From positions 1-64,000 of the forward strand of contig LVBB01000138.1 of the NCBI GenBank assembly GCA_001603075.1: 64,000 nucleotides of DNA. The letters run 5' to 3'. This DNA is from Phycisphaerales bacterium Planc_01 (GTDB lineage: Bacteria; Planctomycetota; Phycisphaerae; Sedimentisphaerales; Anaerobacaceae). The notes beneath the pieces were generated by a model, which saw only the letters and a program-made list of their open reading frames with translations, searched no databases and was not told the DNA's origin. Every line of letters starts with the position of its first letter. The stretch's first letter is position 1. Positions 4,566 to 64,000 of this stretch are shown one piece after another. Position numbers and translations under genes: made by a program.

Positions 4566-4726
4566 CGCCAACTCCCCTTGCAGTCGCAACCCATGCCTAC
4601 TTCTGTCTTATCGGCGCATGATAACCCAGAAATGAAGTGAATTCGAGGTCGGAGCCTGAAAAGATCGGGCGTGGGAGAGAACAAATATGGGTTTCGGAAT
4701 AGCTGGTACGAACGACAGGTGACCAG

Positions 4727-4969: not shown

Positions 4970-5374
4970 TCAGCGGACGGGGGCGGCGAGGAATTGGGCG
5001 TACTTCTTGTCCTGCTGCATGATGTGGCTGACGAGCCAGTCCTTGAGGAACCCGCCGAGACTGACGGACGGGACCATCTGGCCCGCCTGGACCTTGGCGT
5101 TCAGGTCCCGCACCTTGGCGGTGAGCTGGTCGTGCAGGGCCTTGTGGCCGGGCAGGTGCGGATAGCCGCACTCGCGCATCAGGCGCTCTTCGGCCGCGAA
5201 GTGCACCTTCGTGTACATCGCCAGCTCGCCGAGAACGTCCTTCTTCACGTCATCGCCCTGGCCCGACGACATGGCCTCGTACAGGCGGTTGATCAGCTCA
5301 ACAAGCTTCTTGTGCTGGCGATCCATCTCGACCACGCCGACGGACAGTTCTTCGCTCCATTGCATCAGGGCCAT
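4970..5374 (-). CDS. Bacteriohemerythrin
   Basis: This is a 134-residue single-domain hemerythrin that binds O2 at a carboxylate-bridged di-iron site. All seven canonical ligands are present at standard positions: His21, His58, Glu62, His77, His81, His117 and Asp122, seen in VHFAAEE, HKALH and SHIMQQD. There is no signal peptide or membrane segment, so it is cytoplasmic. The ATG at 5374 follows GGGAGAA and is preferred over an upstream TTG. In anaerobes such proteins are thought to store, scavenge or sense oxygen. It is separated from the LptC-like gene upstream by about 140 bases and need not share its function. Confidence 0.9.
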   Translation of the reverse strand: MALMQWSEELSVGVVEMDRQHKKLVELINRLYEAMSSGQGDDVKKDVLGELAMYTKVHFAAEERLMRECGYPHLPGHKALHDQLTAKVRDLNAKVQAGQMVPSVSLGGFLKDWLVSHIMQQDKKYAQFLAAPVR

Positions 5375-42774: not shown

Positions 42775-45159
42775 CTACAGGCCATTCACCCCATACGGAC
42801 CGATCTCATCGACGGGGATCGGCTCGAAAAGGACCGACCGCAACAGACCCGAAGTGGCGGGCGCCTTGCCGCCGGAGACGATCTGATCCGCCAAAGCCCC
42901 GTCGGCAATCGCATTGAGGGCCGTCACCTGGATGCCGCCATCGCGCTGGAGAACGCCCCCCTCGCACCGGACGAAGAGGTTTCGGGCGATCCTGTTGACA
43001 TCCGCGTCGCTTTTGAGGTCGGCCAGTTCGGGATAGCGGCTCGCATAGGCTGACTCGCCGGCCTGGGGCAGAAATCGCTCGACCGCTTCGAGCCAGCGGG
43101 ACTGGCCCCAGCGGCTGAAGGTCAGTCCGGCCAGACAATCCACGAAGAGGTTGCCCTCGACGAGGTTCTCCTTGCCGCCGTGGATCTGGACACCGCCGAA
43201 GTGGACGGCGCCGCATCGCTCGAAGAGGTTGCCGTAGATGGCGACGCCGGAGATCATATCGTCCAGGCGAACCCCGGCGGCGCCGTGCTGCGTGCCCCCG
43301 CGAATATCACTCCAGCGGTTCCAGCGGATCACGACGCCGCGATAGAGCGGATTGCCGAACATGTCGAGCCCGCCCTGGTCGTCCGATTCCCGCACGACGT
43401 TGCGGATCCAGTTCAACTCGATAAGGTGGTCGTTGCCCTCGATTCGCATCGCCGACGATGGAATGTCCTCGAAGAGGTTGTGGGCGATGCGGTTGCCGCA
43501 GCCGTCGAGATGAACGGCCGGCGCGTAGGTGCGCTTCAGACGGGAGATGTCGGAGACAATGCAGTTCTCGACGAAATGCCCCCCCGCCGTCAGCGTCGCG
43601 CGGTCGCCGCCGGCCACACGCGTTCCGCCGCAGCCGAGTGTGCGCATCGTGCAATTGAAGATGCCATGACGGGAGCCCCCCTCAACGACGATCGCGTCGC
43701 CTCCGAACCGCTGGAGCGTGCAGTCGGCAATCAGGCAGTCAGCCCCGCCACGGACGTGGATGCCGTCGCCGCGCCCTTCCTGAAGCGTCAGCCCGCGAAC
43801 CACCACGTGCTCGACGTCGGTCAGCGTGACGAAGGGTCGCTCGAATACGCTCAGAACGATCTCGGCCTTCGACACGTCGAGTCCCTGCGGCGGCAGCCAG
43901 TAGACGATCCTCGCCTGGCGATCAAGGTACCATTCGCCTTCGGCGTCCAGTTCGCGAAAGACGTTCAACGCGAAGTATCGCTGGTCCTTGCGATAGCCGT
44001 AGTTGGAATAGGGCCGGGCCAGCGTGAACGTCTTCTCGTCGGCATCGATCGAGGTGACCGTCTGGTACTCCTCGAACCAGTCCCAGAACCAGTAGCCATA
44101 GAGCCGCACATCGGGCTCGTCGAGCCAGCGGCTCGGGCGGTCCTCGACATAGCGAAACTTCCCATCGCGGCAGCCTTCGATCGTGTTCCAGACCTTGAAG
44201 GTGTCGGTGCCGAGGATTTCGCCGGTCTTGACAAAGCCCTCATTCGGCCAGCGGGCGAGCGTCTGCGGCCTGCCGTCAACAAACAACTCCGGCCGACGAC
44301 GCAACGCCGTGGCGTCGCCCCAATCGCTGGCGATCAAGGCCTTGAGGTCGGCCTGCAGCACCCGATCACGAACCACCGCATCCAGCTTGTCGCGCACGGC
44401 GGCATCCAAGATCGGCTTCCACCCCGTCACCCGCACGCCGCCGCGAAGAACGGCCGTCCCGCCGGCCGGCGTCTCATAAACCACAGGCGCCTCGGCGGTG
44501 CCCGAGTCGCTGCCGGTCAGTTCCAGCGTCCTGTCCCACGGATAGTCTCCGGCGCCGACCACAACCTTCGCGCCGCCGGTGGGCAACTCTCCGCCACCGG
44601 ACCGCTTCAGGGACCGCACCGCATCCCTCGCCCTTTCCAGACTGCGAAATGGCGTCTCCTGCGACCCATCAGCGGCATCATCGCCCCTCGGTGCGACATA
44701 GAACACCTTGCCGGGGGCGGGCAGCACACGCTGCGGCTCTCGATAGGCTGCCGGATCGCGAGCAGGCAATCCCTGCCGGAGGCGCTTCGCCTCGGCGATC
44801 CGCCGCTTGGCCGTGTCACGATGGAACCGCAGCAAGGTCACATCGGCCGCCAGACGTTCCCACGCTGCGACGGCCGCGAGTACATCCTGTTGCGCCATCG
44901 CCACCTCGGCCAATCCGAACAAAGCCAAACCGCGAATGAACGATGCAGCCGAGACGTCGCGTGCCACCGTCTCGAACCCCTTGGCCGCTTCATCCAACCG
45001 CCCCTGGGCAAAGGCCCCAGCCGCCCCATCGAGCGCCGCCGAAGAGGTCGGGGGCGTCTCCTTCGAAGCGCCCGACCCAGGAATCGCCAACATCAGAACC
45101 ACAGCCGGAACCATCAAAGCTCGCAACCACATCGCAGGTGACAATCGCCGTTGGCTCAT
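42775..45159 (-). CDS. Secreted right-handed parallel beta-helix protein
   Basis: The 794-residue protein has a signal peptide (ALMVPAVVLMLAIPGSGAS, cleavage near residue 32). A helical, TPR-like region follows (about 40-130), then a parallel beta-helix starting at VFYVAPRGDDAADGSQETPF. The helix coils recur as LTLQEGRGDGIHVRG, NCTMRTLGCGG and NRIAHNLFEDIPSSAMRIEG. Such folds are common in polysaccharide lyases and hydrolases. No catalytic residue set is clear. The ATG at 45159 is chosen because it leads directly into the signal peptide. Confidence 0.85.
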   Translation of the reverse strand: MSQRRLSPAMWLRALMVPAVVLMLAIPGSGASKETPPTSSAALDGAAGAFAQGRLDEAAKGFETVARDVSAASFIRGLALFGLAEVAMAQQDVLAAVAAWERLAADVTLLRFHRDTAKRRIAEAKRLRQGLPARDPAAYREPQRVLPAPGKVFYVAPRGDDAADGSQETPFRSLERARDAVRSLKRSGGGELPTGGAKVVVGAGDYPWDRTLELTGSDSGTAEAPVVYETPAGGTAVLRGGVRVTGWKPILDAAVRDKLDAVVRDRVLQADLKALIASDWGDATALRRRPELFVDGRPQTLARWPNEGFVKTGEILGTDTFKVWNTIEGCRDGKFRYVEDRPSRWLDEPDVRLYGYWFWDWFEEYQTVTSIDADEKTFTLARPYSNYGYRKDQRYFALNVFRELDAEGEWYLDRQARIVYWLPPQGLDVSKAEIVLSVFERPFVTLTDVEHVVVRGLTLQEGRGDGIHVRGGADCLIADCTLQRFGGDAIVVEGGSRHGIFNCTMRTLGCGGTRVAGGDRATLTAGGHFVENCIVSDISRLKRTYAPAVHLDGCGNRIAHNLFEDIPSSAMRIEGNDHLIELNWIRNVVRESDDQGGLDMFGNPLYRGVVIRWNRWSDIRGGTQHGAAGVRLDDMISGVAIYGNLFERCGAVHFGGVQIHGGKENLVEGNLFVDCLAGLTFSRWGQSRWLEAVERFLPQAGESAYASRYPELADLKSDADVNRIARNLFVRCEGGVLQRDGGIQVTALNAIADGALADQIVSGGKAPATSGLLRSVLFEPIPVDEIGPYGVNGL

Positions 45160-45344
45160 ATGTGTCCATCCCAAATCACGCATCCGTTCCGGTTCGGTCC
45201 TGCCCAGACCAAGAACATTCATGTGGCAGTATACGGAACAATCTGTGATGAATCAAACCCCAGCGGCATGTTCTTGCACCGCACCGAAACGACGCATCGC
45301 ACCTGCCGGGGGCCATCGCTGTCCGAGGAGCAATGTCGGCGCCG

Positions 45345-48679: not shown

Positions 48680-51600
48680 CTACTGCACAGCACCTCCGCC
48701 GGCCGCGTCGTCGGCTCCCAAGGCCGGCTGATTTGGCCTGGCGATCGCCATTACCCAATCCGACCAGCCCGTCATGTTGCCCTCGGCGTCGCGGGCCCGG
48801 ACGCGGAACTGGAGTCCCTGGTTCTGTCTGCCGATCTGGACACGGTAGATCGGATCGGCCTGCCAGCTACTACTCAACCCGGATGGCTCGCGACACTGGA
48901 AGTAGTACTCGACCCCGCCACTGTCGTCCGTCGCGGTCACCGCCATCATCTCGACCCAGTAGTCATTCCAGACACCGGTGTCGCTGTACTCGCGCGGCAG
49001 ACCGTTCGGGTCGAACGCCATCGGATTCGGCGTCGGCGGCGTGGGATCGGCCGGAATCGCCGTGGTAAAACAGCTCCAGGCGGAGTACGGGGTCTCGTTC
49101 TGGTTGGCCGACATATCCCTTGCCCTGACGCGATAGCAGTAGGTCACACCCGGCGCCAGGTTGGCATCGGTATAGGTGTTCGTATTGATCCAGCCGCTGT
49201 CGTTGGCGCCCGGCGTGTTCGTATCGAAGAAGTACTGCACGCCGTTGTCGTCGAAGGCCTCCGTCGCGATCAGCGTGATCGTCTGCGACGTCACCACAGC
49301 GTTGGGCAGGATGTACGGCTCGGGAACCGGTGGCATCCTGTCAACTGTCCCGGCGTAGCGGACGGCCGAGAACTTCGTCTCGTTGCCCAAGGCATCTCGC
49401 GCCTTGACGCGGTAGCCGTACTGCCGACCGCTCGACAGGCCCGTGTCGTTGTAGACCCGGCTACTCTGCCAGCCACTGTCATGGCCGCCGCCGCTGACGT
49501 TCTCGAAGTAGTACTCGACCGGCCAGCCCCATGCATCGACCGCCTCTTTGGCGACCATCCGCGCGGTGCTGCCGTCCAGCCGAGGCAGGGTTTCCCACTC
49601 GGCCGGGTCCGGCGCCGGAGGCGTCGTATCCTGAACCAGCCAGCAGTCGGCCAGCACCGTCAGGTCGCGGACGTTCACACGCGAATCGAACGTCACATCC
49701 GCCTGGTCGCACCATCCATTCGACTCGGAGCAGCCCTCGTCGAGCCACTTGCCGGCAAATGCGGCGAAGTCCTTGAAGTCGATGATCCCGTCGAACACCA
49801 AGTCGCAGAACTTGCACGGCTCGAGGAACGGATAGTGGTACCCCATGTCCACCCGACCCGTGTCCGGAACGTGATCGGTCCGCGTGGTGGAACGCGCCAT
49901 GCCGACATTGCCGGCCAGGTCGCTGCCCGCATCGACCGCCGGACTCGTTCGCGACTGACCTGCGCTGCGATTGCTCAGATAGAAGTCGCCCAGCATCCCG
50001 CTGACGAACATCGGGTCGGCGTTGATCATGCCTTCGCCGTAAGCCAGCGTGCAGCCGGTATCGACCCAGACGTCGTTGGGCCCGACGCGAATGTTGCTGT
50101 AGGAGACGCGGAGCGTGCCGCAGAGCGGATCGAGATCGTATCCGCTGCCAACGGCCAACTCGCCGCCCAGCCGAGCGCCGTTGCCCCAGAGGACCGAGTC
50201 GATCACCGTCGCCTCGCTGAGGTAGCCGCAGAAAATGGCGCCGCCGAACCCGGTGTTGTTCGGATCGCCAGGTGTGCCCGGCGCCGCGTTGGTGACGAAC
50301 GTACAGTTGCGAATCGTCGGTTCCGCGTACCAATTCGTCGAGATGCCGCCGCCGTCGCGGTAGGCCCGGTTGTTGCGGATCAGGCAGTTGACGATCTGCG
50401 TGGCGTTCTGGCCTCGCAGATAGATCCCGGCGCCGGAGCCGTCCGAGATGTTGCCGGCGATGTCGCAGTCCTCGACCAGAGCGTCGGCCGACGAGAAGAG
50501 CAAACCGCCGCCGATCGGTGCGATGTCATTGTCGTTGGGATCGTCCTGGTCCGTGATCGCCCAGTTGTTCCAGATGCGACTTCCGGCGACCCCGATCGAA
50601 CCGCCCATGCCGGCCAGACCCGCGCCGCGCAGGGCCGTATTCTGCGTCACGTTGCAGTCGATGACGCTGACGCCGGCATTGATGACATAGATGCCGCCGC
50701 CGGTGTCGGCGCTGTTGTCGACGAAGTTGCAGTCGACGAACGTCAGGTTGGCGGTGCCTTCCGCCGCGATGCCGCCGCCGAAGCCGATGTACGGATCGAG
50801 GCGGAAGTTCGGGTCCTGTCCGGCCGCCGTCGGGGAGGCAATGTTGTCCTCGAAGGTACAGCCGGTGAAGATCACGGTCGTCTCGGCCGCGCAGTAGACG
50901 CCGCCGCCGTAGGACGGCATCTGGAACGGAATCAGCGGTTCGGTGAACCGGCCGGCCGCCGAGGCCTGGCCGCCCTGGCCGCTCATGCCGCCGTAGCTGC
51001 GGTTGCCGCGAATGACGCAGGAGACGAACTCAGCACTGCTGCGCTGGTCGATATAGACGCCGCCGCCGTAGCCGGAGTACCAGCGATAGTCGCCGAAGTA
51101 CGATCCGCCGCTGCCAATGATGCCTGTGGCCGGCGAGTAGGGCTGCGTCCCAAAGGCCGCCTCGACATCGGCCGCAAAATCCCACAGCCAGGTCCGCCAC
51201 AGCTCCTGCATGGCCGTCTCGGCCCCCAGGCTGTTCGGATTGATGTCGATCATCACGGGCGGCGTGTAGTTGCCGCCGTAGTTGGCCAGACCGCCGCCGT
51301 CGGAGTAGTTGCCGCCGTTGCCGCCGTTGCCGCCCTGCACGAAGTTGTTCTCGATAATGCAGTTGACGAACCTCGGATTCGTGCCGACGGCACAGTAGAT
51401 CGCGCCGCCGCGTGCCCAGCCACCCCAGCCGCCGCGACCGGCGTTGGTCGTGTCATCGGCGTCCACGCCGGCGCCGCCGTCGCCGGCGATCACCGCGTTG
51501 TTGCGGAAGATGCAGTTCTTGATCACCGGAGCCGCGCCCGGCAGCAGGATCATGGCCGCGCCTTCGATCGGCGCGCCGTCCCCGCCATTGGGATGTCCGA

Positions 51601-54600
51601 TGTCGCGATCGCCGTCGTCCCCGTCGGCCGCGTTTCCGCCGCAATTCTGGATGGTGAACCCGTTGAACACGGTATTGCGGTCGGCGCCCGGTCCGAACAG
51701 CACGCCGATATTGTTCCACGCATTGCCCGGCACCGCGCCAAGGCCGTCGATGATCGTCGAAGCCACGACGGTCGGATCGTCCGGATTCCTCGATGTGATC
51801 GTCACGGGCTTGTCGATGATCAGGGCAAAGGCCTCGTAGCCGCTGTAGTAGGTGCCTGGATCGACCACGATCGTGTCGCCTTCGCCGGCGGCGGTCACGG
51901 CGCCCTGAATCGTCGAGTAGTCGCCCGGTACGGTAACGACGCGCGACCGGCGTTTCTCGAACGTCACCGTCACCTGGCGATCCTGCGTCAAGGTAACGGT
52001 ATTGGCCAGGCCCGTCAGCGTGTCGTCGTCGGTGCCCGACCACCGGCTGACTCGCCAGCCCTGCTCGGGCGTGGCGACGAGTCGCACGACGTTGTCGGCG
52101 GCCCCTTCATAGGCCACGGCAAACGCCGGACTGACCGAGCCGTGAGGCAGCCCGTCGTCGGCGTTGGGCAGCACCTCGGCCGTCAGGGTGAACAACGTCA
52201 CGCCCTGGACATAGTGGTAACCCATATCCACCGTATTGGCGTCGGGTACCCCGTCGGTTCGCGTCGTACGACCGGCCAGATCAATCCCCACGGCACTGGC
52301 CGGACCACTTCCCGCATCGACCGCCGGGCTCTGTCGTCCCTGGCCCGATGCCGTCTGGCCCAGGTAGTACCCCGCGATAAACAACGGGTCTTCATCGATA
52401 TTGCCGGTCGCTTCGTCCCAGGTCGCCGCTGCGGCGTCCCAACCGGGCAGCCGTGATTGATCGGAGACGTAGATCGACGGCGCCACGTGCGTGATCAGTT
52501 CGATGCTCTGCGTCACCGCCGCCGCCAGACCGAGGGCGTTGGGCGCACGCGTCAGCGCACCGCCCGTGCCACCGGCCAAAGAGGTGTAGTACACCGAGGT
52601 CAGCGGGTCCTGGCCGATTTGCACCGCGAAGATGCGTTTGCTCGGCGACTGCGAAGCCGCGTTGACCACCGTCGAGAGCGTGTAGCCCGTCGGCGGCTCC
52701 GGATCGTGTGGTGGACCATCCCCGATAAGCAGGATGATGCGGTTGACCTGCCCGCCGCGCCATCCGCCCAGAGCGGTCCCATCGATCGTGTCGATCAACG
52801 CCGAGTACACCGACTCGGCGTCGGTGTCACCGCCGGCGCCTGCGGGCGTGCCGAGAGTGTTGATCCCGTTGATCACCCGCGTCGGGTCCTCAGTGAACGG
52901 TACGACCGCCCGGAACGTGTAGTCCGTCCCCGCCCCCAGACCCGTGTCGTTGAAGTCTTTGAAATCCACCACCGCCATGCGGTAGTCGGGCGACTGCATC
53001 GCCACCGCAGCCACCAGTTGGGCGGCAGCGGCCCGCAGGGCCAGGACGTTGTTCGTCATGCTGTCCGTGGTATCGATGACGAAGACCAGGTCCAACGCTG
53101 TGCCTGCAACGGCCGCTGGATCGAGGCTTGGCTGGATGTTGCTGTGGCGAACGTGCAGCGTGGACGGTCGGACTCCGTACTGGAAGCCGTTGGCCACCGC
53201 GACCTGCGAGCCGTTCTTATTGCTGGAATTGCCCCAGACGATCGAGTCGGTCAGGACGGCATTCGAGTCGTACGCGACGAACAGACCGCCGCCGAAAGCC
53301 GAGCCCAGCGCCCCGGTCACCACGTTGTCGGCGATGGTCGAACTGCTGATGATCGGCTCGGATTTCCAGATGGAGATGCCGCCACCGTCGCGTCCGGCCG
53401 TGTTGCTGGTAATCAGGGAGTTGTGCACCCGCGGCGCGGTCGTGATGTCCTGGTCGGAGCCACCGAGATAGATGCCGCCGCCGGACGACAGCGAGCGGTT
53501 GCCGGTGAAGACACTGTTGTAGATGTCGATCGGCGAGTTGATGCCGCAGAAGCCGCCGCCCCAACTCATGACGCCGCCGAACCCGACGTTCGGATCGGTC
53601 ACGAGGTTGGCGTCCACGTTGGACAGGAACGCCAGGTTCCGCTGGATGAGCGAGCCGTCGATCACGCCGACCGAATCGACCGCGTACATGCCGCCGCCGT
53701 GGTAGGCGCTGTTGCCGGCGAAGTTGCAGTCGACGATCGTCGCCGAGGCGTTCGACCACCACATGCCGCCGCCGACGCAGGAGGTGTTGTTCTCCAGGAT
53801 GCAGCGGATGAACGTCGGCGTACTGCCGTCCTCGAAGGCGATCGCACCGCCGTAGCTGACGTAGATGTCGTCGGGCACGGCCACGGTGTTCGTATCGGCG
53901 ACGTTGTCCCGGAAGACGCAACCTTCAAACACCGGGCTGCTGTTGGAGCCGATATACACGGCGCCGCCGAAGTTCTCGATGTTCTGGTTCGTTTGCGGCG
54001 GGGGCACGGGGTTTCCACCAACGCCGCAGACACCGCCGGCCGTGTAGTTGTTCTCGAATGTACAGTCGACAAACTTCGGCGAGCTGTAGTACTCGATGTA
54101 CACGGCGCCGCCGAAACCACTGTACTTCCAGTAGTCCAGATAGGGCCCGTACATCCAGCCATCCCAGCCGGACAGGATCATCTGATTCTCGATGGTCTGG
54201 GCCCATTCCCAGTTACCGCCTCGACCGCCCTGAGCGCCCTGGACGCCGCCGCCTCCGTCGCCGCCGTTGCCGCCTTGGGCATAGTTGCCGCGGAAGGTGC
54301 AGTTTTCGAACGTCGGGCTGCTGAGATAGCCGATGTAGACCGCGCCGCCGTAGGCGTAACCGGCCCATCCGCCGTCGAAGCCCATCGGATGCTCCTCCGT
54401 CCCGCCGTCGCCGGGCGCCCCGTTGCCGCCGGTCACAGAGCAATCGACGAAGTTGCAGTTGCGGATCGTTGGCGAGGCGTTGGTCATGTACACGGCGCTG
54501 CCGGAAACGCTGATTCCGTCCGGTCCATCATCCGCGGCTTGGGATACGTTGCCCGGACTTGAGCCGACGATGTTCGTGTCGCGGAATGTGATACCCTCGA

Positions 54601-57600
54601 TGATCGTCTCGGGACCGACGTTCGAGATCAAGAACTGGTACTGCCGCATGATGGTGCTGGCGACGACGTTGGGATCGTCGGGATTGGAGCCCATCAGGGT
54701 AATGTTCTTGTTGCTGATTTCGATGTACGGCCACGGGAAGACCGGGGCATAGGTGCCGGCCGGCACGACGACGACATCGCCTTCACCGGCGGCGTCGATC
54801 GCATGCTGAACGGACGTATACTCCGGCGCACTGCCGACGATGATGGTTCGCGGCTGGTCGAATTCGACCGTCACGGTCCGGTCCGGACCCATGACGACCA
54901 GGTTGTTGACGCTCTTGGAGGCGTCGTCGGTGGTTCCGGCCCACTGGGCCACCCGCCAACCCGACTCCGGCCGGGCCGTCAAGGGCACCGCCGTTCCGGC
55001 GTAGTACTGCCCTGTGGTCGGTTCGAGCGTTCCATGACCGCCGACCACACGCGTGGTCAGCGTGAACTGCTCCAGCGTCGTGTGATCGCGGAAGTGGAAC
55101 CCGAGGTCCACCGCCCCTTCGTCGCCGCTGCCGTCGGTCCGCGTCGTAAGCTCCGACAGACCGAGGCTCTCGGCCAGACGACTACCCGCGTCGACAGCCG
55201 GACTGGTCGCCTCCTGCCCCGAGGCCGTCTGGCTCAGATAGACCTTGCCCAGCGGACCCTCGACGAACAGCGGATCGGCGCCGATGTTCGTCACATCCAG
55301 CTCGGCGCCCACCATCGTCTGAACGGTAGCGGTCGTCGCGTCATAGACGCCGAAATCGCCGTCCGGATTCTCATGGAACAGACTGTGCGTCAAGGTCGAA
55401 TTGGCGAACTCGACCTCGACCACCGCGACCTTGCTGTTGTCCTGGAAGATGCAGTCGGTCATCGTCACGTCGCCGTCCCAGTCACAGAAGACCGCGCCGC
55501 CGAGTCGCTTGGCGTCGTTGCCGACGAACGTGCTGTTGGTGATGCTCGGCGTGGCAAACAGACCCGCCCAGACGGCGCCGCCGTGACGGTTGGCGTTGTT
55601 GTCGAGGAACAGACAGTTCTTGACGACGTGATCGACGTAGCCGCCGTAGAAGGTGATCGCGCCGCCGGAACCCTTGGCGCCGCCGGCGGTGTTGTTCTCG
55701 AAGGTGTAATCTTCGATCGTGACGCTGGTGGCCGCGCAGACCAGGCCGCCGCCGATGTCGACGCCCGCGCCCTGCTCGGCCGCAATGGCGCCCAACTGAG
55801 CGGTCTGGGTGTCGATGCCGCTGCCACCGGTCGATTCGTTGTTGCTGATGATGCCGCCGATGAACTTCGCGTTGCCGGCCGTCAGATACAGGGCGCCGCC
55901 GTTCTTGGCCCGGTTGCCCAGGAAGTAACAATCGGCAAAGACGGCCTCGAAGTCCTCGAAGTGAATCGCGCCGCCCTGGCCGTAGAAGCCGTCGATGGCC
56001 GAATTGCCGCCGAAGCTGCACGATTGCAGGGTGAAATTGAGGGTCGCCGGCTGCTGCGGGTTGCCCGAGTCGAGGTAGCCCTCGAGGGCGCCGCCGTTGT
56101 CGCCGGCCTTGTTGCCCGAGAACGAGCAGCCGACGATGTCGGCGTCGCTCATCAGGCGCACGGCGCCGCCGCTGGCGCTGGCGCTGTTGCTGTAGAACTG
56201 ACAGTTGCGCAGCGTCACCTCAGGACAGAGCGGCCCGACAAACAAGGCGCCGCCGGAGTAATCGACCAGAACGTTGCTGAGGTTGAAGTCCTGACGGAAG
56301 ATGATGACGCCGTCGACCATGATCGTATAGGAACCCACGCCGGCGCTCTGCCCGTTGGCCTGGTTGTGGCTGAACACGCAGTCGTTGAAGTCCACGATGC
56401 AACTGGCGTCCACGTAAACGGCGCTGCTGATGTTCCTCGAGAACTCGCACCGCTCGAGCTTGACTGTGTTGCCTGGACCCGAGTAGATGCCGCCACCGGG
56501 CATATAGGTGTACAGTTCCTCCTGCTCGAGACCGAGCAGAGCGAGCGTCGGATCGAGCGAGATCGCGTTGTAGGCCATGTTGCCTGTGAAGGTGCAGTCG
56601 ACGAACGTGGGACTGGCGCCGTTCTGGTAGACGGCGCCGCCGACGATCGTGCCGTTCGTGCTGACCATCCCACTGGCGCCGGGGCCGGCCGGGTTGGGAT
56701 ACGGATCGCTCAGATCGGAGCCGGGCCCTGCCGCACCGGGCAGACCCGCGACACCGCTGGTCGCATGGTTGTTGGCGAACACACAATTCTGGAACACCGC
56801 GTCGCTGCCGGCCTCACAGTAGACCGCGCCGCCGTGGCCGTCGCCCGAGGCACTGCCCGCGTTGCCGCCCCAGCTTGCCCAACCGCTGCCCTGGTTGGGA
56901 TTGCTGCCGCTGCCGCCGTCGCCGCCCATGCCGCCACGGGCCATGCAGTTGCGGATCGTCACATTGATGAAAGTCGGCTTGCTGCCGCCCAGACAGGCGA
57001 TCGCACCGCCGAAGCTGTTGCCGCTGCCGCTGCCGGCGTGGCCGCCCCAGTCGCCCTTGCGATCCGAGTTCGCGTTGGTGATCGGGGTACCGTCAATACC
57101 GTTGCCGCCCTGGGCCGCGACCACCATACTGTCCTCGATGACGACGTTCCGGAAGGTCGGCGAGCTGCCGTTCTCGCACAGGATCGCTCCGCCGTAACCG
57201 GTGCCGCTGACGCTGGTGCCCGAAGCCATCAGTATGGGCGGATCATCCTCATCCGGGTTGTACTCCAGAATCGGCCGGGCCGGTATGCCGCCGGTGACAC
57301 CCACCGCGCCGATCCAGTAGCCGTTGCGGATCGTCACGCCGGTGATCAACGTGTCGGGACCTTCCCCTCGTTGGAAGTGGAAGGCGCGCCGGCGGACGAA
57401 CCGCGAACCGTTACAGTCGATGATCGTGGTGGCAATGATGTTCGGATCATTCGGATCGGTGGACATGATCCGGACGGCCTTGCGCTGCAGGTCGATGCCC
57501 GTAGCGGTGCTGACGTAGTGGACCCCCTCTTTGAGGATGATGTTGGTGTCGCCCGGACTGGCGGCCAGCACCGCCTCTTCGATCGTGCGGAACTCGTCCG

Positions 57601-60600
57601 GCACGATAATGTTGCGGGTGACATCGCGTTCGAACTGGACGGTGACGAACTTGTCGCCCGGGTCCATCGTCACGACGTTGGTGTTCCGGTTCCACGAGGG
57701 GTCGTCGTCGGTGCCGATCCACTGGCGGACGCGATAGCCCGGCTGTGGAGTCGCGACGAGAGTGACCTGCGCGAACTCATGGTAGTATCCGCTCGTCGGC
57801 ACCACGGTCCCATGTCCGCCGACGACGGTAACCTCCAGACGATAGCGTCCCTGTCCGGCGTAGTGGAAGCCCATGTCCACCGTTCCGACATCGCCCACAC
57901 CGTCGGTCCGTGTGGTCGCATCGGCCAGACCGAGCTGTGTCGCCATGGCGCTGCCGGCGTTGACCGACGGGCTGTCCTGACTCTGTCCGGCCGCCATCTG
58001 GCTGAGGAAGTAGGAATCGACGAACAGCGGATCGGATTCGATGTTGCCGGCGAGCCAATTGAGGGTCCGGCCCGACTCGATGTGCAGACCGAGCCGCCCG
58101 TACTGAACGTTGCTGTAGGAGACCGTCAGCGTCGCAGGTCGCTGGATGTAGACCGGATCGCTGTCGCTGCCGATCGAGATCTGCGAACCCTGCTGCGCTT
58201 CGTTGTTCCAGAGAATGCTGTTGATCAGCACCGTATTGCTGCTGTGCGAGCAGACCAGGCCGCCGCCCTTGCCGCGGTTCGGCACGTCGGTGTCGAATGC
58301 CCGGTTCTCGACGATCGTACAGTTCTCGATCGTCGGTGCGGCGTACCAGTGTGAGGCGATGCCGCCGCCGTCCACGGTCGCCGTATTGGCCTTGATCAGA
58401 CAGTTCTTCAGCCTGGGTGTGTACGGATCGCCGCCGAAGTAGACGCCGCCGCCGGAACCCAGCGTGGTGTTCTCGCTGATGAAGCAGTCCTGGATCAACG
58501 CGTTGGACGACCAGCAGACCAGACCGCCGCCGAGACCGAGACCGGTGCTCCTGGACTCGGGCACATCCGGCGGCGTGAACGGACTGTTCGGATCGAACAT
58601 CGAATTCGGGTCGTTCGGATCGGGCCACGTGTTCGAAGGAGGCCACGTGCTCGGATCGTTCGGGTCCAGAGCGGGCGCCGGGACGTACACGGTGTACTGC
58701 GGCCCGGTCGCTTCGTTGCCGCGAATGCTGCAATTCTCAATCCTCGGTGCGCCGCGGCTCCAATACAGACCGCCGCCTTCAATGGCGGTGTTGCCGCGAA
58801 TCACACCGTTGGAGACGCGGACGTCGGCGCCCTGGCCGTACCAGTACAGACCACCGCCGTAGCCGGCCTCGTTGCCCGAGAACTGGCTGCCGCGAATGCT
58901 CAGCGTACTTCCATTGTAGTAGTCCAGACGGTCCTCATCCCAGATACCGCCACCGAAGAGACCGCCGCCGTAACCGTTGTCGTCGGCGGTGCGGTTGCCG
59001 GAGAACGTGCTGTCGTTGACGTCAAGACGGCATTCATAGCTCAGGAACAGACCGCCACCGTTGGTGCCGGCCTCGTTGTCGAAGTAGCTGCAGCCGTTGG
59101 CCGTAATCGCGCAGCCCACCTCGAACGCCTGACCGCCGCCATACAGACCGGATGTGTTGCCTTCAATCGTGCAGCGGGTCAGTTCGACCTCGCAGTCGTT
59201 GGCGTAATACTCGCCGCCGCCGCTGTCGGCTTCCACAAGGTTGGAGCTGATCGTGGTGTCGGTCAGCTTGACCACACAGTTCGACAGATAGGCATTGGCG
59301 CCGCCGAAGTTGCTGGTGAAGCTGCGGAGGACCACACCTCCGGCACCGGCCCCGCCGGCCGAACCATCGGTCCCCCCGGCACCACCGGCACCACCGGCCC
59401 CCGGCGCTTCGCCGTTGCCGCCGGGACCACCGGCACCACCGTTGCCGCCCGGGCTGCCGCCGGCGCCACCGGCGCCACCGTTACCGCCGGCGTACGAAAT
59501 CGTCGGCACCGTCCACAGAGCGGAGTTGCCGCTGATCGCCGTGTCGTAGATCTGCACATCGCAGTCCTCGGCGAAGAAGATCGCCCCGGCCCACGAACGC
59601 AGGCCGTTGATACCCATCTCGCCACCAGCCCCGCCGGAGCCACCATCGGCACCAATCCCGTCGGTCCCTGCCTGGCCGTCCTGACCGTCGTTCTCGCCGG
59701 AACCGGCCGCGCCGCCTTCGGCCGCCACGCCGCCATTCCCACCGGCGCCGCCGGCACCACCGGCGCCACCGGGGCTCCCAAGGCCTTGCAGCGTCTCGCA
59801 GTCAGCGATAGTCACATATCGAATGATCGGTCGGCAATTGGCGCCGAAGTACATCGCGCCGCCCAAGGCCTCGCCGCCATCGCCGCCCTTGCCGCCGGCG
59901 CCGCCGGCACCACCGGGGCCACCGCTGCCGCCATTGCCGCCGTTGCCGCCGTTGCCGCCATTGCCGTCGGGGCCGTCATTGAGGCCCGGGCCACCGTTCT
60001 GGCCGTCCTGCCCGGCTTGGCCGTCGCCACCATCCTGGCCGTCCTGGCCGTCCTGGCCGGTGCCGCCGAAGCCACCGGTGCCGCCGAGGGCCCGGCAGTT
60101 GCGAATCGTCACATGCAGGATCGTCGGAGCACAGTTCGGATCGAAATAGAACGCGCCGCCGTACCCGTTGCCGCCGCGACCGCCGTCGAAGCCGGGCGCA
60201 CCATCGGCGCCGGGCGCACCGTCGGCGCCGTTGGCGCCGTCGGCGCCGTCGCGGCCGGGCGTGCCGTCGACCGGCGCGTTCGGATCGCGGGGATTGGGCG
60301 CAGGCTCAGCCGGATCGTCCAGCGGGTCGGCCGGGTCGGCCGGATCGGCCGGCGCATCGGGCGCTGCCGGAGGCGTCGGAGGAGCGCTGGCGTCCTCGCC
60401 GTTGCGGCCCCGCGCGATACAGTCTTCGATGATCAGATTGGACAAGGTCGGACTGCTGCCGTTGAAGCAGGCGATGGCGCCGCCGAAGGCGTCCTCGCCG
60501 GGCGCACCGTTTCCGCCGCTGTCGTTGGGCGTCTCGGGATCGTACACGGCCGAACCATTGCGGAGCGTGAAGCCGTCCACCACCGCATCGGGCCCTTCGC

Positions 60601-63600
60601 CGCTCTGGAAGACGAACAGACGGCCCAACTGGGCGGCATCGAGGATCGTCGTCGCGACGCAATTGGGATCATCCGGATGCTCGCTGGCCAACGTAATGGC
60701 CTTGCCCCCGAAGTCGATCGAATGGACGCGATGAATGCCGGCGCCGACGATGATCTTGTCGCCGTGTGTACTGGCCGCACGGACCGCCTCGCCGATCGAG
60801 CGATACTGGCCCGGCACGTGCAGACTCTTGGGCTGGCGGAAGCTGACGCGAACCTCTTTGTTCGAATCGACTGTCACCGTGTTGGCGTTGGTCCACAGCG
60901 CATCGTTGTCCGTCCCCGTCCAGGCGTCCACAATATAGCCCGAGGCCGGCGAGGCAACCAGATCGATCACCGTGCCGTCGGGATAGACCTGGCCGCGACG
61001 GTGTTCCGGACTTACGGTCCCGTTGCCGCCCGCCACGGTAATCCTCAATTCGTACATCGGGATTTGCTCGAAGACCGCGATCATGTTGATCGGTCCGAGC
61101 ACCGGCAGCGCGATCGTCGTGTCGGGATCGATCATCTGCCCGGTCGTCAGAAGCCACTGTTTGAGACGATATCCCTCGGCCGGCTGAGAGGTCAGTTCGA
61201 GCACGGAGAACTCGCGGAACAGGCCGCCGTTCGGATCGACCGTGCCGCCGACCTCGCCATCGACGGGTGCGCCGTCGGCGTCCACCGTCATCAGTGTGAG
61301 ATTCAACGGGAACAGGTTCGCCGACGTAATGTCATAGTGGGCCCCCATGTCGATCCGGCCGGCGTCTTCGACACCGTCGGTTCGGGTCGTTCGAGACGCC
61401 AGCGAGGCGCCGACGTTGGGATCCCCCGCGTCGATGCACGGGCTGTCGGTCAACTGCCCGGCTGCCATCTGGCTGAGATAGTATCGGCCGAGCGGCCCGG
61501 CGATCAGAAGCGGATCGCCGGCGATGTTGCCCTCGCCGGCATCGCCATCTTCGATGCAGGAGTACGAAGCAAAGCAATTGACCAGATCGTCTCCGTTGCC
61601 CCAGAGAATGCAGTTGACGATTGTCGGATCGGACTGCCCCGAGCAGACGATGCCGCCCTTGCCGGGCGCGTTTTCATCGACGACGATCGTGCAGTTGGTG
61701 ATGGCGGGCGAGGAATCTTCCAGGTCGAACTGTGCGCTTCCGCTGACCGCCGAGTTGTTGATCACGAAGCAGTTAAACAGCGTCGGCGAGGCGTTGTAGC
61801 AGGCCATGCCGCCGCCGAGATTCATGGAGCTATTATTGCGGATGGTGGAATGCGTGATCGTGGGCGAGCCGTCTTCACAGTTGATGCCGCCGCCCAGGCC
61901 GTCCTCGGCCAATACCGCGTTGTTGCTGATAACGCAGTTGATGATCTCCGGAGAGCCGGCGAAGCAATCGATGCCGCCGCCGTAGTATTGCGCCTGGTTG
62001 TCGGTGATGATGCACCGGTCGATGGTCGGGGAGGCCTCCTCGATGCGCACACCACCGCCGTATTCGGCGACGCCCCAGCCGATCGTCAATCCCCTCAGAA
62101 CACTGTCGCGGCCCTCGCCGTTGGCGAAGGTCACGATCGAACCTTCCTGACCGGTCAGACCGACGAGGAACGTCGTCTCGGGATAGACGTTCGGATCGTT
62201 CGGATCGTCGACGCTCCCGCTGCGAAGCGTGATGGCCTTGCCTTTGAAGTCGATCCGTTCGCTGTAAACCGTATTGCCGCTGGCCAGCGTCTCGGCGATG
62301 ATCACATCGCCGTTGTTGGCGTCGTCGATCGCCGCCTGGATCGAGGAATAGACGTTATCCCGATCGCGCGTGTTGACCACGCGTCCGGCCTGTCCCGTCG
62401 GCACCGCCGTCAGCACGGCCATGAGATTCAGGCGCCCCTGCGAAGCCGCCAACCCCGGCAGCACCCTGTCGGCGGTCTGCATCAGAACATGCTTAACCTG
62501 AATCACAGACAACGACGGGTTCTGCGAAAGCAGCAGAGCACTGGCGCCGGCCACGCGCGGAGCTGCCAGAGATGAGCCGCTGATCACACCGTACTGGGCG
62601 GGCAGGCCCGCCTCGCGCATAGCTGCCGTCGGCTGCATCGGCAGCGTGCTGAGCACGTCCTGTCCCGACTCACCGAGATCGACCGACGTGCGTCCGTAGT
62701 TGGACGACCAGGCCAGCGCGCCGTCGTTGTCGGTGGCCAGAACGCTGATGATGTTGCGGGAACTGTAACCGGCCGGATACACCGGCGTCACATCGATGTT
62801 TTTCGATTCGTTGCCGGCCGCCGCCACGAACAGCACGCCCTTCTCGCCGGCGGCTTCGATGGCGTTCCTCAGGCTCTCGCTGTAGTCCGAGCCGGCCCAC
62901 GAGATGTTGACCACCCTGGCGCCGGCGGCCACGGCGTACTCGATCGCGGCGACCGCCGCGTCCAGATCCACGCCGGCCGGGCCGACCACCTTCAAAGGCA
63001 TCAACCGGACGTTGCCGCCCACACCCAGTTCCTCTCCGATCGCCGCAATGATGCCCGCGACGTGCGAACCGTGATACACCTCGTCGGTCGGATCGGCCGT
63101 GTTGTTGATGAAGTCGTAACCGTGAATGTCATCCACATAGCCGTTGCCGTCATCGTCGACGCCGGCCTGACCGCTTGCCTCCGCCTCGTTGACCCACAGA
63201 CGGCCCGCCAACGCAGGATGGGTCAGATCCATGCCGGTATCGAGGATCGCCACAACGACCTCGGCGCCGTCGGTCGCAACGGTGTTCGCAATCAAACCGT
63301 CGATCTCCGCCTCATCCAGCGTTGTCTGGACGGCCGAGACGCGACAAAGGGAATAGCGATAGTTGGGTTCGGCATACAGCACGTCGCCGCTGCCGGCAAA
63401 CCGTACCATTGCATCGACTGCGGCCACATGATCGGGCAGCGAGACCACGGCCAAGCCGGAGACGGCGCCGTCGAAGTCGCTCCGAACGGACGCACCTTCC
63501 ACCACCGCATCGCAGATCGCGTTGCGTACGGCCCGTTTCGTCCGCGGCCCGAACAATCCCGAGCAGGTCAAAGGCGGTCCATCCCGATCGACGAACCGGA

Positions 63601-63766
63601 CCAGCAGTTCCTGCCGTCCGTCCGCCGCCCGACCGCCGTCAATCGCGTCCGACAATGAAAATGACAAGTCGTTTGCTGTCGCCAACCCCATCCCGGCGCA
63701 AAGAATCAGCACCGAGCCAATCAGCAACCGCCAGGTGCCCGGTCGCTCCTGCATCTGCTTTCTCAT
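48680..63766 (-). CDS. Giant secreted subtilisin/beta-helix/VWA/dockerin-like protein
   Basis: One open frame of 5028 residues. A signal peptide (LLIGSVLILCAGMGLATA) leads to an S8 protease domain with Asp176 in AILDTGMD, His232 in YHGSHVAGI and Ser399 in ISGSSLAAPRVAG. Five parallel beta-helix units follow. Each opens with a SIQAAIDDA-type coil and closes with a TTRTDG...VDMGYHY-like motif. InlB-like repeats (GGHGTV..GYRV..W.GTDDD) lie between units. Unit 2 carries collagen-like and GGN/GGA-rich loops, and unit 4 contains a VWA domain. The end has two dockerin-like EF loops and three FN3-like repeats. It is probably extracellular or surface-bound. Function is unknown; adhesion, glycan binding or self-processing are possible. 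The ATG at 63766 is chosen because it gives a clean signal peptide; an in-frame start at 63868 exists. Confidence 0.9.
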   Translation of the reverse strand: MRKQMQERPGTWRLLIGSVLILCAGMGLATANDLSFSLSDAIDGGRAADGRQELLVRFVDRDGPPLTCSGLFGPRTKRAVRNAICDAVVEGASVRSDFDGAVSGLAVVSLPDHVAAVDAMVRFAGSGDVLYAEPNYRYSLCRVSAVQTTLDEAEIDGLIANTVATDGAEVVVAILDTGMDLTHPALAGRLWVNEAEASGQAGVDDDGNGYVDDIHGYDFINNTADPTDEVYHGSHVAGIIAAIGEELGVGGNVRLMPLKVVGPAGVDLDAAVAAIEYAVAAGARVVNISWAGSDYSESLRNAIEAAGEKGVLFVAAAGNESKNIDVTPVYPAGYSSRNIISVLATDNDGALAWSSNYGRTSVDLGESGQDVLSTLPMQPTAAMREAGLPAQYGVISGSSLAAPRVAGASALLLSQNPSLSVIQVKHVLMQTADRVLPGLAASQGRLNLMAVLTAVPTGQAGRVVNTRDRDNVYSSIQAAIDDANNGDVIIAETLASGNTVYSERIDFKGKAITLRSGSVDDPNDPNVYPETTFLVGLTGQEGSIVTFANGEGRDSVLRGLTIGWGVAEYGGGVRIEEASPTIDRCIITDNQAQYYGGGIDCFAGSPEIINCVISNNAVLAEDGLGGGINCEDGSPTITHSTIRNNSSMNLGGGMACYNASPTLFNCFVINNSAVSGSAQFDLEDSSPAITNCTIVVDENAPGKGGIVCSGQSDPTIVNCILWGNGDDLVNCFASYSCIEDGDAGEGNIAGDPLLIAGPLGRYYLSQMAAGQLTDSPCIDAGDPNVGASLASRTTRTDGVEDAGRIDMGAHYDITSANLFPLNLTLMTVDADGAPVDGEVGGTVDPNGGLFREFSVLELTSQPAEGYRLKQWLLTTGQMIDPDTTIALPVLGPINMIAVFEQIPMYELRITVAGGNGTVSPEHRRGQVYPDGTVIDLVASPASGYIVDAWTGTDNDALWTNANTVTVDSNKEVRVSFRQPKSLHVPGQYRSIGEAVRAASTHGDKIIVGAGIHRVHSIDFGGKAITLASEHPDDPNCVATTILDAAQLGRLFVFQSGEGPDAVVDGFTLRNGSAVYDPETPNDSGGNGAPGEDAFGGAIACFNGSSPTLSNLIIEDCIARGRNGEDASAPPTPPAAPDAPADPADPADPLDDPAEPAPNPRDPNAPVDGTPGRDGADGANGADGAPGADGAPGFDGGRGGNGYGGAFYFDPNCAPTILHVTIRNCRALGGTGGFGGTGQDGQDGQDGGDGQAGQDGQNGGPGLNDGPDGNGGNGGNGGNGGSGGPGGAGGAGGKGGDGGEALGGAMYFGANCRPIIRYVTIADCETLQGLGSPGGAGGAGGAGGNGGVAAEGGAAGSGENDGQDGQAGTDGIGADGGSGGAGGEMGINGLRSWAGAIFFAEDCDVQIYDTAISGNSALWTVPTISYAGGNGGAGGAGGSPGGNGGAGGPGGNGEAPGAGGAGGAGGTDGSAGGAGAGGVVLRSFTSNFGGANAYLSNCVVKLTDTTISSNLVEADSGGGEYYANDCEVELTRCTIEGNTSGLYGGGQAFEVGCAITANGCSYFDNEAGTNGGGLFLSYECRLDVNDSTFSGNRTADDNGYGGGLFGGGIWDEDRLDYYNGSTLSIRGSQFSGNEAGYGGGLYWYGQGADVRVSNGVIRGNTAIEGGGLYWSRGAPRIENCSIRGNEATGPQYTVYVPAPALDPNDPSTWPPSNTWPDPNDPNSMFDPNSPFTPPDVPESRSTGLGLGGGLVCWSSNALIQDCFISENTTLGSGGGVYFGGDPYTPRLKNCLIKANTATVDGGGIASHWYAAPTIENCTIVENRAFDTDVPNRGKGGGLVCSHSSNTVLINSILWNNEAQQGSQISIGSDSDPVYIQRPATLTVSYSNVQYGRLGLHIESGRTLNWLAGNIESDPLFVDSYFLSQMAAGQSQDSPSVNAGSAMATQLGLADATTRTDGVGDVGTVDMGFHYAGQGRYRLEVTVVGGHGTVVPTSGYYHEFAQVTLVATPQPGYRVRQWIGTDDDPSWNRNTNVVTMDPGDKFVTVQFERDVTRNIIVPDEFRTIEEAVLAASPGDTNIILKEGVHYVSTATGIDLQRKAVRIMSTDPNDPNIIATTIIDCNGSRFVRRRAFHFQRGEGPDTLITGVTIRNGYWIGAVGVTGGIPARPILEYNPDEDDPPILMASGTSVSGTGYGGAILCENGSSPTFRNVVIEDSMVVAAQGGNGIDGTPITNANSDRKGDWGGHAGSGSGNSFGGAIACLGGSKPTFINVTIRNCMARGGMGGDGGSGSNPNQGSGWASWGGNAGSASGDGHGGAVYCEAGSDAVFQNCVFANNHATSGVAGLPGAAGPGSDLSDPYPNPAGPGASGMVSTNGTIVGGAVYQNGASPTFVDCTFTGNMAYNAISLDPTLALLGLEQEELYTYMPGGGIYSGPGNTVKLERCEFSRNISSAVYVDASCIVDFNDCVFSHNQANGQSAGVGSYTIMVDGVIIFRQDFNLSNVLVDYSGGALFVGPLCPEVTLRNCQFYSNSASASGGAVRLMSDADIVGCSFSGNKAGDNGGALEGYLDSGNPQQPATLNFTLQSCSFGGNSAIDGFYGQGGAIHFEDFEAVFADCYFLGNRAKNGGALYLTAGNAKFIGGIISNNESTGGSGIDTQTAQLGAIAAEQGAGVDIGGGLVCAATSVTIEDYTFENNTAGGAKGSGGAITFYGGYVDHVVKNCLFLDNNANRHGGAVWAGLFATPSITNSTFVGNDAKRLGGAVFCDWDGDVTMTDCIFQDNSKVAVVEVEFANSTLTHSLFHENPDGDFGVYDATTATVQTMVGAELDVTNIGADPLFVEGPLGKVYLSQTASGQEATSPAVDAGSRLAESLGLSELTTRTDGSGDEGAVDLGFHFRDHTTLEQFTLTTRVVGGHGTLEPTTGQYYAGTAVPLTARPESGWRVAQWAGTTDDASKSVNNLVVMGPDRTVTVEFDQPRTIIVGSAPEYTSVQHAIDAAGEGDVVVVPAGTYAPVFPWPYIEISNKNITLMGSNPDDPNVVASTIMRQYQFLISNVGPETIIEGITFRDTNIVGSSPGNVSQAADDGPDGISVSGSAVYMTNASPTIRNCNFVDCSVTGGNGAPGDGGTEEHPMGFDGGWAGYAYGGAVYIGYLSSPTFENCTFRGNYAQGGNGGDGGGGVQGAQGGRGGNWEWAQTIENQMILSGWDGWMYGPYLDYWKYSGFGGAVYIEYYSSPKFVDCTFENNYTAGGVCGVGGNPVPPPQTNQNIENFGGAVYIGSNSSPVFEGCVFRDNVADTNTVAVPDDIYVSYGGAIAFEDGSTPTFIRCILENNTSCVGGGMWWSNASATIVDCNFAGNSAYHGGGMYAVDSVGVIDGSLIQRNLAFLSNVDANLVTDPNVGFGGVMSWGGGFCGINSPIDIYNSVFTGNRSLSSGGGIYLGGSDQDITTAPRVHNSLITSNTAGRDGGGISIWKSEPIISSSTIADNVVTGALGSAFGGGLFVAYDSNAVLTDSIVWGNSSNKNGSQVAVANGFQYGVRPSTLHVRHSNIQPSLDPAAVAGTALDLVFVIDTTDSMTNNVLALRAAAAQLVAAVAMQSPDYRMAVVDFKDFNDTGLGAGTDYTFRAVVPFTEDPTRVINGINTLGTPAGAGGDTDAESVYSALIDTIDGTALGGWRGGQVNRIILLIGDGPPHDPEPPTGYTLSTVVNAASQSPSKRIFAVQIGQDPLTSVYYTSLAGGTGGALTRAPNALGLAAAVTQSIELITHVAPSIYVSDQSRLPGWDAAAATWDEATGNIDEDPLFIAGYYLGQTASGQGRQSPAVDAGSGPASAVGIDLAGRTTRTDGVPDANTVDMGYHYVQGVTLFTLTAEVLPNADDGLPHGSVSPAFAVAYEGAADNVVRLVATPEQGWRVSRWSGTDDDTLTGLANTVTLTQDRQVTVTFEKRRSRVVTVPGDYSTIQGAVTAAGEGDTIVVDPGTYYSGYEAFALIIDKPVTITSRNPDDPTVVASTIIDGLGAVPGNAWNNIGVLFGPGADRNTVFNGFTIQNCGGNAADGDDGDRDIGHPNGGDGAPIEGAAMILLPGAAPVIKNCIFRNNAVIAGDGGAGVDADDTTNAGRGGWGGWARGGAIYCAVGTNPRFVNCIIENNFVQGGNGGNGGNYSDGGGLANYGGNYTPPVMIDINPNSLGAETAMQELWRTWLWDFAADVEAAFGTQPYSPATGIIGSGGSYFGDYRWYSGYGGGVYIDQRSSAEFVSCVIRGNRSYGGMSGQGGQASAAGRFTEPLIPFQMPSYGGGVYCAAETTVIFTGCTFEDNIASPTAAGQDPNFRLDPYIGFGGGIAAEGTANLTFVDCNFVDNSADTGGGIYVINAGVSVIDCNVTQNTALRGAGLAGMGGSIGVAGSRIWNNWAITDQDDPNDNDIAPIGGGLLFSSADALVEDCDIAGNISDGSGAGIYLRGQNATQIVNCLIRNNRAYRDGGGISTNWYAEPTIRNCTFVTNAAPGTPGDPNNTGFGGAIFCGYLSEATVIDSVLWGNGARLGGELAVGSGYDLDPLCGTLRVSYSNIRVGPNDVWVDTGCTLAYGEGMINADPMFVSGMLGDFYLSNRSAGQSRTSPAVDAGSDLAGNVGMARSTTRTDHVPDTGRVDMGYHYPFLEPCKFCDLVFDGIIDFKDFAAFAGKWLDEGCSESNGWCDQADVTFDSRVNVRDLTVLADCWLVQDTTPPAPDPAEWETLPRLDGSTARMVAKEAVDAWGWPVEYYFENVSGGGHDSGWQSSRVYNDTGLSSGRQYGYRVKARDALGNETKFSAVRYAGTVDRMPPVPEPYILPNAVVTSQTITLIATEAFDDNGVQYFFDTNTPGANDSGWINTNTYTDANLAPGVTYCYRVRARDMSANQNETPYSAWSCFTTAIPADPTPPTPNPMAFDPNGLPREYSDTGVWNDYWVEMMAVTATDDSGGVEYYFQCREPSGLSSSWQADPIYRVQIGRQNQGLQFRVRARDAEGNMTGWSDWVMAIARPNQPALGADDAAGGGAVQ
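48760..49620 (-). repeat. Three FN3-like repeats at the giant protein's C-terminus
   Basis: Three similar segments share the pattern VEYYFE..DSGWQ..Y.D..L..G..Y.YRVRARD..GN. Examples are YGYRVKARDALGNETKFS and YCYRVRARDMSANQNETPYS. This is the look of fibronectin type III-like domains often found at the ends of secreted planctomycete proteins. They probably act as spacers or binding modules. Confidence 0.6.
49640..49820 (-). other. Dockerin-like EF-loop pair
   Basis: Two loops, CDLVFDGIIDFKDFAAFAGK and ADVTFDSRVNVRDLTVLADC, each end in a helix and carry Asp at positions 1, 5 and 12 of a calcium-loop pattern. This is the paired arrangement of type I dockerins. A cohesin partner is not encoded in the window, so the binding role is inference. 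Confidence 0.6.
52490..53100 (-). other. VWA domain inside beta-helix unit 4
   Basis: About 205 residues form a von Willebrand A domain: LDLVFVIDTTDSMTNNVL holds a DxTxS MIDAS motif, followed by YRMAVVDFKDFNDTGLG and VNRIILLIGDGPPHDPEP. The flanks, VRHSNIQPS and GNIDEDPLFIAG, match the last coil and closing strand of the other units (SYSNVQYG / GNIESDPLF). The domain therefore sits within the unit rather than between units. Confidence 0.75.
59325..60270 (-). repeat. Collagen-like and glycine-rich loops in beta-helix unit 2
   Basis: Four low-complexity segments lie in the loops of unit 2: a collagen-like GADGANGADGAPGADGAPG run (about 60160-60270), and three Gly/Asn/Ala-rich runs such as GGNGGNGGNGGSGGPGG (about 59860-60095, 59600-59790 and 59325-59495). 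The DNA is an array of imperfect GCCGCC-type units. They lie just before beta-helix strands of the form GGAMYFG, so they are loop insertions. Confidence 0.7.
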
Positions 63767-63875: not shown

Positions 63876-64000
63876 TCAGTACTGGAACTCGTTGCCGATA
63901 CCGGCTTCCAGCGCGGCCAGCGCGTCTTCCTCGCGTTCCTCCTGCAGGATGATGGTCGGCTTGACCAGGATCAGCAGGATCTTGTTGTCCCGGATCTTGC
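63876..64000 (-). CDS. C-terminal end of a secretin-like protein (partial)
   Basis: The last 40 residues of a frame that enters from the right edge read KIRDNKILLILVKPTIILQ, then an acidic tail ending GNEFQY. The LLILVKPTIIL part resembles the last strand of type II/III secretion secretins (GspD-like). Only the C-terminus is seen, so the assignment is tentative. It lies upstream of the giant gene on the same strand, about 110 bases away. Confidence 0.5.
   Translation of the reverse strand, partial: KIRDNKILLILVKPTIILQEEREEDALAALEAGIGNEFQY

Follow-up and report, generated by a model that had tools for sequence, protein, structure and literature searches.

The window, by which we mean the whole stretch of 64,000 nucleotides that was analysed, ends in two genes on the minus strand, a giant gene and the adjoining end of a gene for a secretin. 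The giant frame starts with an ATG at 63766, stops at 48680 and specifies a protein of 5,028 residues (518.6 kDa, pI 4.25), and the same interval read in register on the plus strand contains stops. In the product a signal peptide, a prodomain and an S8 protease precede beta-helix units and InlB repeats, five of each, with a single VWA domain among them, and the C-terminal part consists of a dockerin-like pair and three FN3-like repeats. The arrangement is as follows.

63879..64000, minus strand: end of the secretin gene adjoining the giant gene; the gene continues to base 65153, the contig end
48680..63766, minus strand: giant gene, 5,028 aa
63674..63766, minus strand: signal peptide, residues ~1-31, assigned by eye
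63353..63613, minus strand: S8 prodomain region, residues ~52-138, preceding the S8 domain and conserved among relatives
62387..63313, minus strand: S8 protease domain, residues ~152-460, with Asp176, His232, Asn319 and Ser399
61313..62386, minus strand: beta-helix unit 1, residues 461-818
60827..61312, minus strand: InlB-like repeats 1 and 2, residues 819-980
57848..60826, minus strand: beta-helix unit 2, residues 981-1973
59567..60259, minus strand: Gly-rich, collagen-like stretch within unit 2, residues ~1170-1400
57617..57844, minus strand: InlB-like repeat 3, residues 1975-2050
55073..57613, minus strand: beta-helix unit 3, residues 2052-2898
54848..55069, minus strand: InlB-like repeat 4, residues 2900-2973
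52199..54847, minus strand: beta-helix unit 4, residues 2974-3856, the slot of which holds a guest
52481..53110, minus strand: VWA domain, residues ~3553-3762, guest of the unit 4 slot, motif DTTDS
51947..52195, minus strand: InlB-like repeat 5, residues 3858-3940
49832..51946, minus strand: beta-helix unit 5, residues 3941-4645
49631..49831, minus strand: dockerin-like pair, residues ~4646-4712
48737..49630, minus strand: three FN3-like repeats, residues ~4713-5010

In Pfam searches of the giant protein, Peptidase_S8, Beta_helix, Flg_new_2 (InlB-like) and VWA exceeded the curated cut-offs, Beta_helix and Flg_new_2 doing so in both halves, and profiles derived from the window found unit heads, end caps and InlB repeats five times each. 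A preliminary description of this DNA had listed an S8 domain with intact triad, five beta-helix units, InlB, VWA, dockerin-like and FN3-like parts in one frame, and this list was right. An assembly join of separate genes, the doubt raised there, is excluded, as a congener (G002, frame of 5,001 aa) and a member of another genus (G108, frame of 5,172 aa) show the identical string of modules in one frame. Between the window and G002 the dN/dS, obtained like all such values here by a simple count method without significance test, was 0.24 over 4,874 codons.

The three C-terminal repeats matched Ig_Rha78A_N with 35.9 bits (cut-off 27.4) and fn3 with 21.9 bits (cut-off 25). The dockerin-like pair of the window protein scored 14.0 bits against PF00404 (Dockerin_1), below the cut-off of 22.9, and does not count as a type I dockerin where PF00404 has to exceed its cut-off in the protein itself; the orthologue in G006 passed with 23.7 bits. 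A profile of 21 orthologous tails matched solved dockerins (E 1.5e-4 to 9.5e-4) as well as FN3 chains. Elsewhere in the window's genome (97.4% complete, 5.65 Mb) there were seven Dockerin_1 matches and no match to cohesin PF00963, and a cellulosome-like docking was rejected on the latter ground. The tail as a general sorting signal was likewise rejected, with only three other similar places in the genome. Within the giant protein, no T9SS, PEP-CTERM, LPXTG or similar sorting or anchor domain was found with NCBIfam, no C-terminal autotransporter beta-barrel family with Pfam (both E 0.01), the C-terminus being FN3-like, and no carbohydrate-binding module with either collection (E 0.01).

Two further genes of the window, both on the minus strand, are mentioned in passing. 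The one at 963-4589, in the window's lowest-GC stretch, encodes a protein of 1,209 aa in which parts of a superfamily-1 helicase (AAA_11, AAA_12) occur together with a PLD-like domain; the PADLOC profiles MkoA (236 bits) and MkoC (148 bits) matched it, and it is possibly an acquired defence gene. The one at 42778-45222 encodes 815 aa with a right-handed beta-helix region.

The adjacent secretin gene and the family of giant partners

The giant gene lies directly downstream of the gene whose secretin domain matched PF00263 with 92.8 bits. In relatives this secretin gene has ~1,000-1,200 codons and encodes, besides the secretin domain at the C-terminus, TPR-like repeats (below cut-offs) and a Gly/Met-rich stretch. 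The window's contig 138 ends (65153) inside the Gly/Met-rich repeat, and the remainder of the gene is probably found at the start of contig 24. The secretin gene of the congener G001 is likewise split across two contigs. On the strand opposite the secretin, a conserved gene of ~250-290 aa adjoins it in eight relatives (e.g. L086 4028-4867). The start of this gene presumably resembles TsaB.

The secretin was matched in 74 of the 89 genomes of the host's family and in 31 of the 32 of high quality. Linkage was assessed in the 52 genomes with the secretin end in the fetched stretch, a set which left out genomes with a nearby contig end or an unmatched secretin end, and in which 32 genomes had been picked by giant-gene probes and 20 by the secretin alone. 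A frame with giant-protein modules was located downstream of the secretin in 51 of the 52, many of these partners being broken by contig ends and G087 being counted by an S8 match in a frame of 458 aa. The fair figure, from the genomes picked by the secretin alone, was 19 of 20, with G016 as the exception. In the window's own genome there were 14 secretin-domain matches, and 12 other secretin neighbourhoods of 16-18 kb each contained no giant-protein module in frames >200 aa.

The survey of the order also covered 20 of 24 genomes from six further families. One family had a partner in 5/5 genomes, all without S8, and for G052 the evidence was a single unit-head match on a truncated frame. The other five families displayed the secretin without a giant partner in all 15 genomes examined; the secretin must therefore have another or older role. 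Among the partner-less genomes, G038, G042, G046, G050, G054 and G057 had S8-headed long frames elsewhere. Those of G042, G046, G050 and G054 (L039, L041, L043 and L044; another family of the order) encode S8-headed proteins of ~4,000 aa with InlB-like, dockerin-like and FN3-like parts, not beside the secretin.

A probe made from unit 1 matched in 33 of the 89 host-family genomes, in open frames of up to 12,792 aa. The closest named records are MAGs, among them JAAYBA010000273.1 with 92% identity across the N-terminal 820 residues. In the plan common to the relatives an N-terminal S8 domain often comes first, a beta-helix unit with its end cap and an InlB repeat then recurs along the chain, and most complete relatives are closed by the dockerin-like pair and the FN3-like tail. 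The 56 linked partners had from 1 to 13 unit heads, none being found in the truncated G087. The window protein is one member of a family widespread in the host's clade.

Guests in the beta-helix units

Each beta-helix unit has one slot, situated between the last coil and the end cap. Inserts of >200 residues occupied this slot in 35 of 168 parsed units, two gaps of 91 and 122 residues which look like helix coils having been excluded from the count. In the window the slot of unit 4 holds the VWA domain (27.9 bits against PF00092, cut-off 23.8) with the DxSxS-type metal-site motif DTTDS. The DxSxS-type motif was present in 12 of 13 VWA guests, the remaining one showing DSTDT. A phmmer search of the PDB gave no close solved relative of the window VWA guest. 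Structure models of a decayed S8 domain and of the unit 4 VWA were of low confidence (mean pLDDT 53.2 and 46.7); with the latter, a VWA domain ranked at the top in Foldseek, and the Foldseek matches only agree with the sequence results.

The window VWA as sole query detected 12 VWA domains, its own included, with ends 13-21 residues before an end cap, and the N-terminal S8 profile detected 8 internal S8 domains with ends 38-43 residues before an end cap. Guests were named by scanning 10 representatives with Pfam and 6 with NCBIfam, and the others by self-made profiles. Among the ten representative inserts, Pfam gave matches above the cut-offs to NIDO in four, S8 in one and VWA in one, and a near-threshold match to SMP-30 in another (25.2 vs 26.3 bits); of the three without Pfam match, two were choice_anch_L by NCBIfam and one was left unnamed. 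With the five-kind profiles, 35 guests were counted in the 56 partners: VWA (n = 13), S8 (n = 10), NIDO (n = 8), choice_anch_L (n = 2) and propeller-like (n = 2). All 35 were located shortly before an end cap, a distance partly built in by the origin of the profiles, and the only other matches were N-terminal S8 domains; built from slot inserts, the profiles exclude only those five kinds outside the slot, in relatives. Two of the 35 (in G044 and G048) had no nearby unit head and were flagged as outside a unit, although a cap follows 19 residues after their end; the 33-unit comparison below does not include them. The S8 guests come with a prodomain, and in a motif scan (n = 10) the His, Asn and Ser motifs were present in 10/10 and the Asp motif in 6/10.

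When 33 guest-bearing units were compared outside the slot, the best match in another genome held the same kind of guest in 19 cases, another kind in 6 and an empty slot in 8, the latter 14 matches having only 35-59% identity. Guest and scaffold thus appear often to travel together (19/33 units were closest to a scaffold with the same guest). The clearest example of a possible exchange is unit 9 of G068. Its coils ahead of the slot are similar to those of unit 9 in the congener G067, which holds an S8 guest, and the end cap is nearer to unit 10 of G067, as is, by eye, the next InlB repeat. The VWA guest of unit 9 in G068 shares 41% identity with the VWA of G067 and 52-55% with those of G002, G015 and G062 (39-55% overall). 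This single chimeric unit is compatible with recombination switching at the slot.

Intact, absent and decayed N-terminal proteases

The S8 domain of the window scored 156.9 bits against PF00082 (cut-off 21.8), and its closest solved relative was deseasin MCP-01 (PDB 3vv3, E 3.2e-55). The Asp, His and Ser of the triad and the oxyanion Asn can all be aligned, and the protease is predicted to be intact. An N-terminal S8 signal was found in 39 of the 56 linked partners, with all four catalytic letters in 32 of the 39. Among the S8-headed remainder, two had an Asp in place of the oxyanion Asn (alignment unsure), three were split, cut or partly aligned (G102, G087 and G032) and two, in the congeners G002 and G005, were decayed. 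The S8 domain of G102 (L064) is spread over two frames by decay or sequencing error. The N-terminal S8 was missing in 17 of 56 partners (12/51 of the host's family and 5/5 of the other family). Two of these 17 (G035 and G086) contained an S8 domain in the slot, and in 15 of 56 partners no S8 was found anywhere with the self-made profiles. Mapping the S8 label on a tree built from the secretin end required at least nine changes.

In G002 and G005, an in-frame deletion has removed about a hundred residues including the Asp and the His, the loop preceding the serine is gone, and the Asn and Ser are substituted. Between these two the dN/dS was 0.25 for the whole giant gene (3,000 codons) and 0.23 for the S8 remnant (182 codons). 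The prodomain is the exception to this constraint, with 0.40 between the decayed copies of G002 and G005 vs 0.15 in the comparison of the window with G001. Site patterns in the giant gene grouped G002 with G005, at 51 nucleotide sites vs 4 and 2 in the remnant, and the tree of the short secretin end instead grouped G005 with the window. The site patterns seem to favour one decay event, and decay as two separate events was rejected, a single event being the simpler. Judged by its absence in 17 of 56 partners and its decay in two congeners with the gene under purifying selection, the N-terminal protease is optional.

Proposed function and comparison with known systems

The best explanation as a whole, on balance a probable one, is a secretin-coupled, extendable protein for surface display or adhesion with guest slots, and may be depicted as follows: The giant protein would be the exported cargo, possibly the ligand, of the neighbouring secretin. 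It would cross the inner membrane via its Sec signal and then leave through the secretin or be held there; the adjacency of the two genes, which makes it a candidate type II secretion substrate, does not by itself prove export. On the cell surface it would form a long chain of beta-helix units with InlB-like spacers, closed by the dockerin-like pair and the FN3-like tail. The slot before each end cap would display a guest, VWA in the window and a protease, nidogen-like, choice-of-anchor-L or propeller-like domain in relatives. Lineages would extend the chain by added units and re-equip it by change of guest. The N-terminal subtilisin would be an accessory that can be lost and that, where present, works on substrates at the surface or trims the chain. 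A surface adhesin or scaffold is plausible from the signal peptide (seen by eye), the beta-helix, the VWA, the FN3-like tail and the adjacent secretin. Adhesion is favoured because most VWA, nidogen-like and FN3-like domains serve in binding, and the S8 guests and head would contribute local proteolysis.

It is unlikely that the two neighbours have no common task, with the secretin working in a type II or pilus machinery of general use and the giant gene simply kept at its side. Such independence would suit the 15 of 20 genomes of other families, and G016, in which the secretin has no partner, as well as the 14 secretin-domain matches in the window's genome, but the pair is kept in 19 of 20 secretin-picked genomes although the frame varies from ~1,700 to 12,800 aa, and nothing alike was found around 12 other secretin genes of the window's genome. 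A scaffold for protein degradation or glycan harvesting, similar to a cellulosome or planctosome and docked by the dockerin-like pair, appears improbable. The lack of a cohesin match in a 97.4% complete genome and the score of the window pair below its cut-off (14.0 bits) argue against it, even though the pair is related by profile to solved dockerins, exceeds the cut-off in G006 and has seven Dockerin_1 counterparts elsewhere in the genome.

The preliminary description had suggested glycan capture or self-processing. With neither a carbohydrate-binding module in the giant protein nor a cohesin in the genome, there was no direct sign of the former. Self-processing, in which the S8 head would cut the chain into surface pieces and maturation would be the main function, is quite improbable and is not supported as the main idea. 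It would agree with the intact triad of the window, with the four catalytic letters in 32 of 39 S8-headed partners and with the S8 guests (His, Asn and Ser motifs 10/10, Asp 6/10). Yet 17 of 56 partners lack the N-terminal S8 and 15 any S8 found by profile, the S8 label changes at least nine times on the secretin tree, and two congeners devoid of the Asp, His, Asn and Ser keep the giant gene at a dN/dS of 0.25 (3,000 codons).

Extending the secretin-coupled display protein, we propose, tentatively and as less than probable, a two-gene export-and-display system: a dedicated secretin together with an extendable beta-helix chain bearing a standard port, at which unrelated domains would be swapped by recombination to re-equip one and the same surface fibre. 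If true, a class of planctomycetal giant genes would be explained by a grammar of unit, spacer, slot, guest and tail, and a candidate exporter would be named for them. Two questions would also become testable: can a beta-helix protein of at least half a megadalton be exported or held by a secretin, and does a single structural port permit the exchange of unrelated folds in a surface fibre? Such a port would be useful for protein engineering as well.

Giant genes of Planctomycetes have been reported before. One study, which cites Reva and Tuemmler (2008), describes giant genes as encoding mostly surface proteins or synthetases (PMC5177795); the likeness to the present gene lies in the very long planctomycetal frames, and its available part mentions neither a unit plan nor a guest slot or a partner secretin. 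The planctosome, a cohesin/dockerin peptidase complex of the surface, has been proposed for the freshwater group Nemodlikiaceae (PMC6461901). Planctomycetes, peptidases, dockerins and a proposed surface complex are shared features, but the planctosome needs cohesins and metallopeptidases on separate proteins, whereas here no cohesin was found and the protease forms part of the chain itself. A study that compares polysaccharide degradation across the phylum has neither "dockerin" nor "giant" in its available main text (PMC11131199). The open-licence literature gave no description of the pair of secretin and giant gene or of the slot, which is weak evidence of absence. The whole combination, for which the preliminary description knew of no described system, is one member of a widespread clade family.

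Deseasin MCP-01 and other S8A subtilases are not known to have beta-helix units, and the likeness is confined to the catalytic domain (E 3.2e-55). Autotransporters and other beta-helix adhesins have a beta-helix stalk with inserted domains. The giant protein differs from these in its separate secretin gene, in the lack of a match to a C-terminal barrel family, and in consisting of several short units with a standard slot rather than of one long helix.
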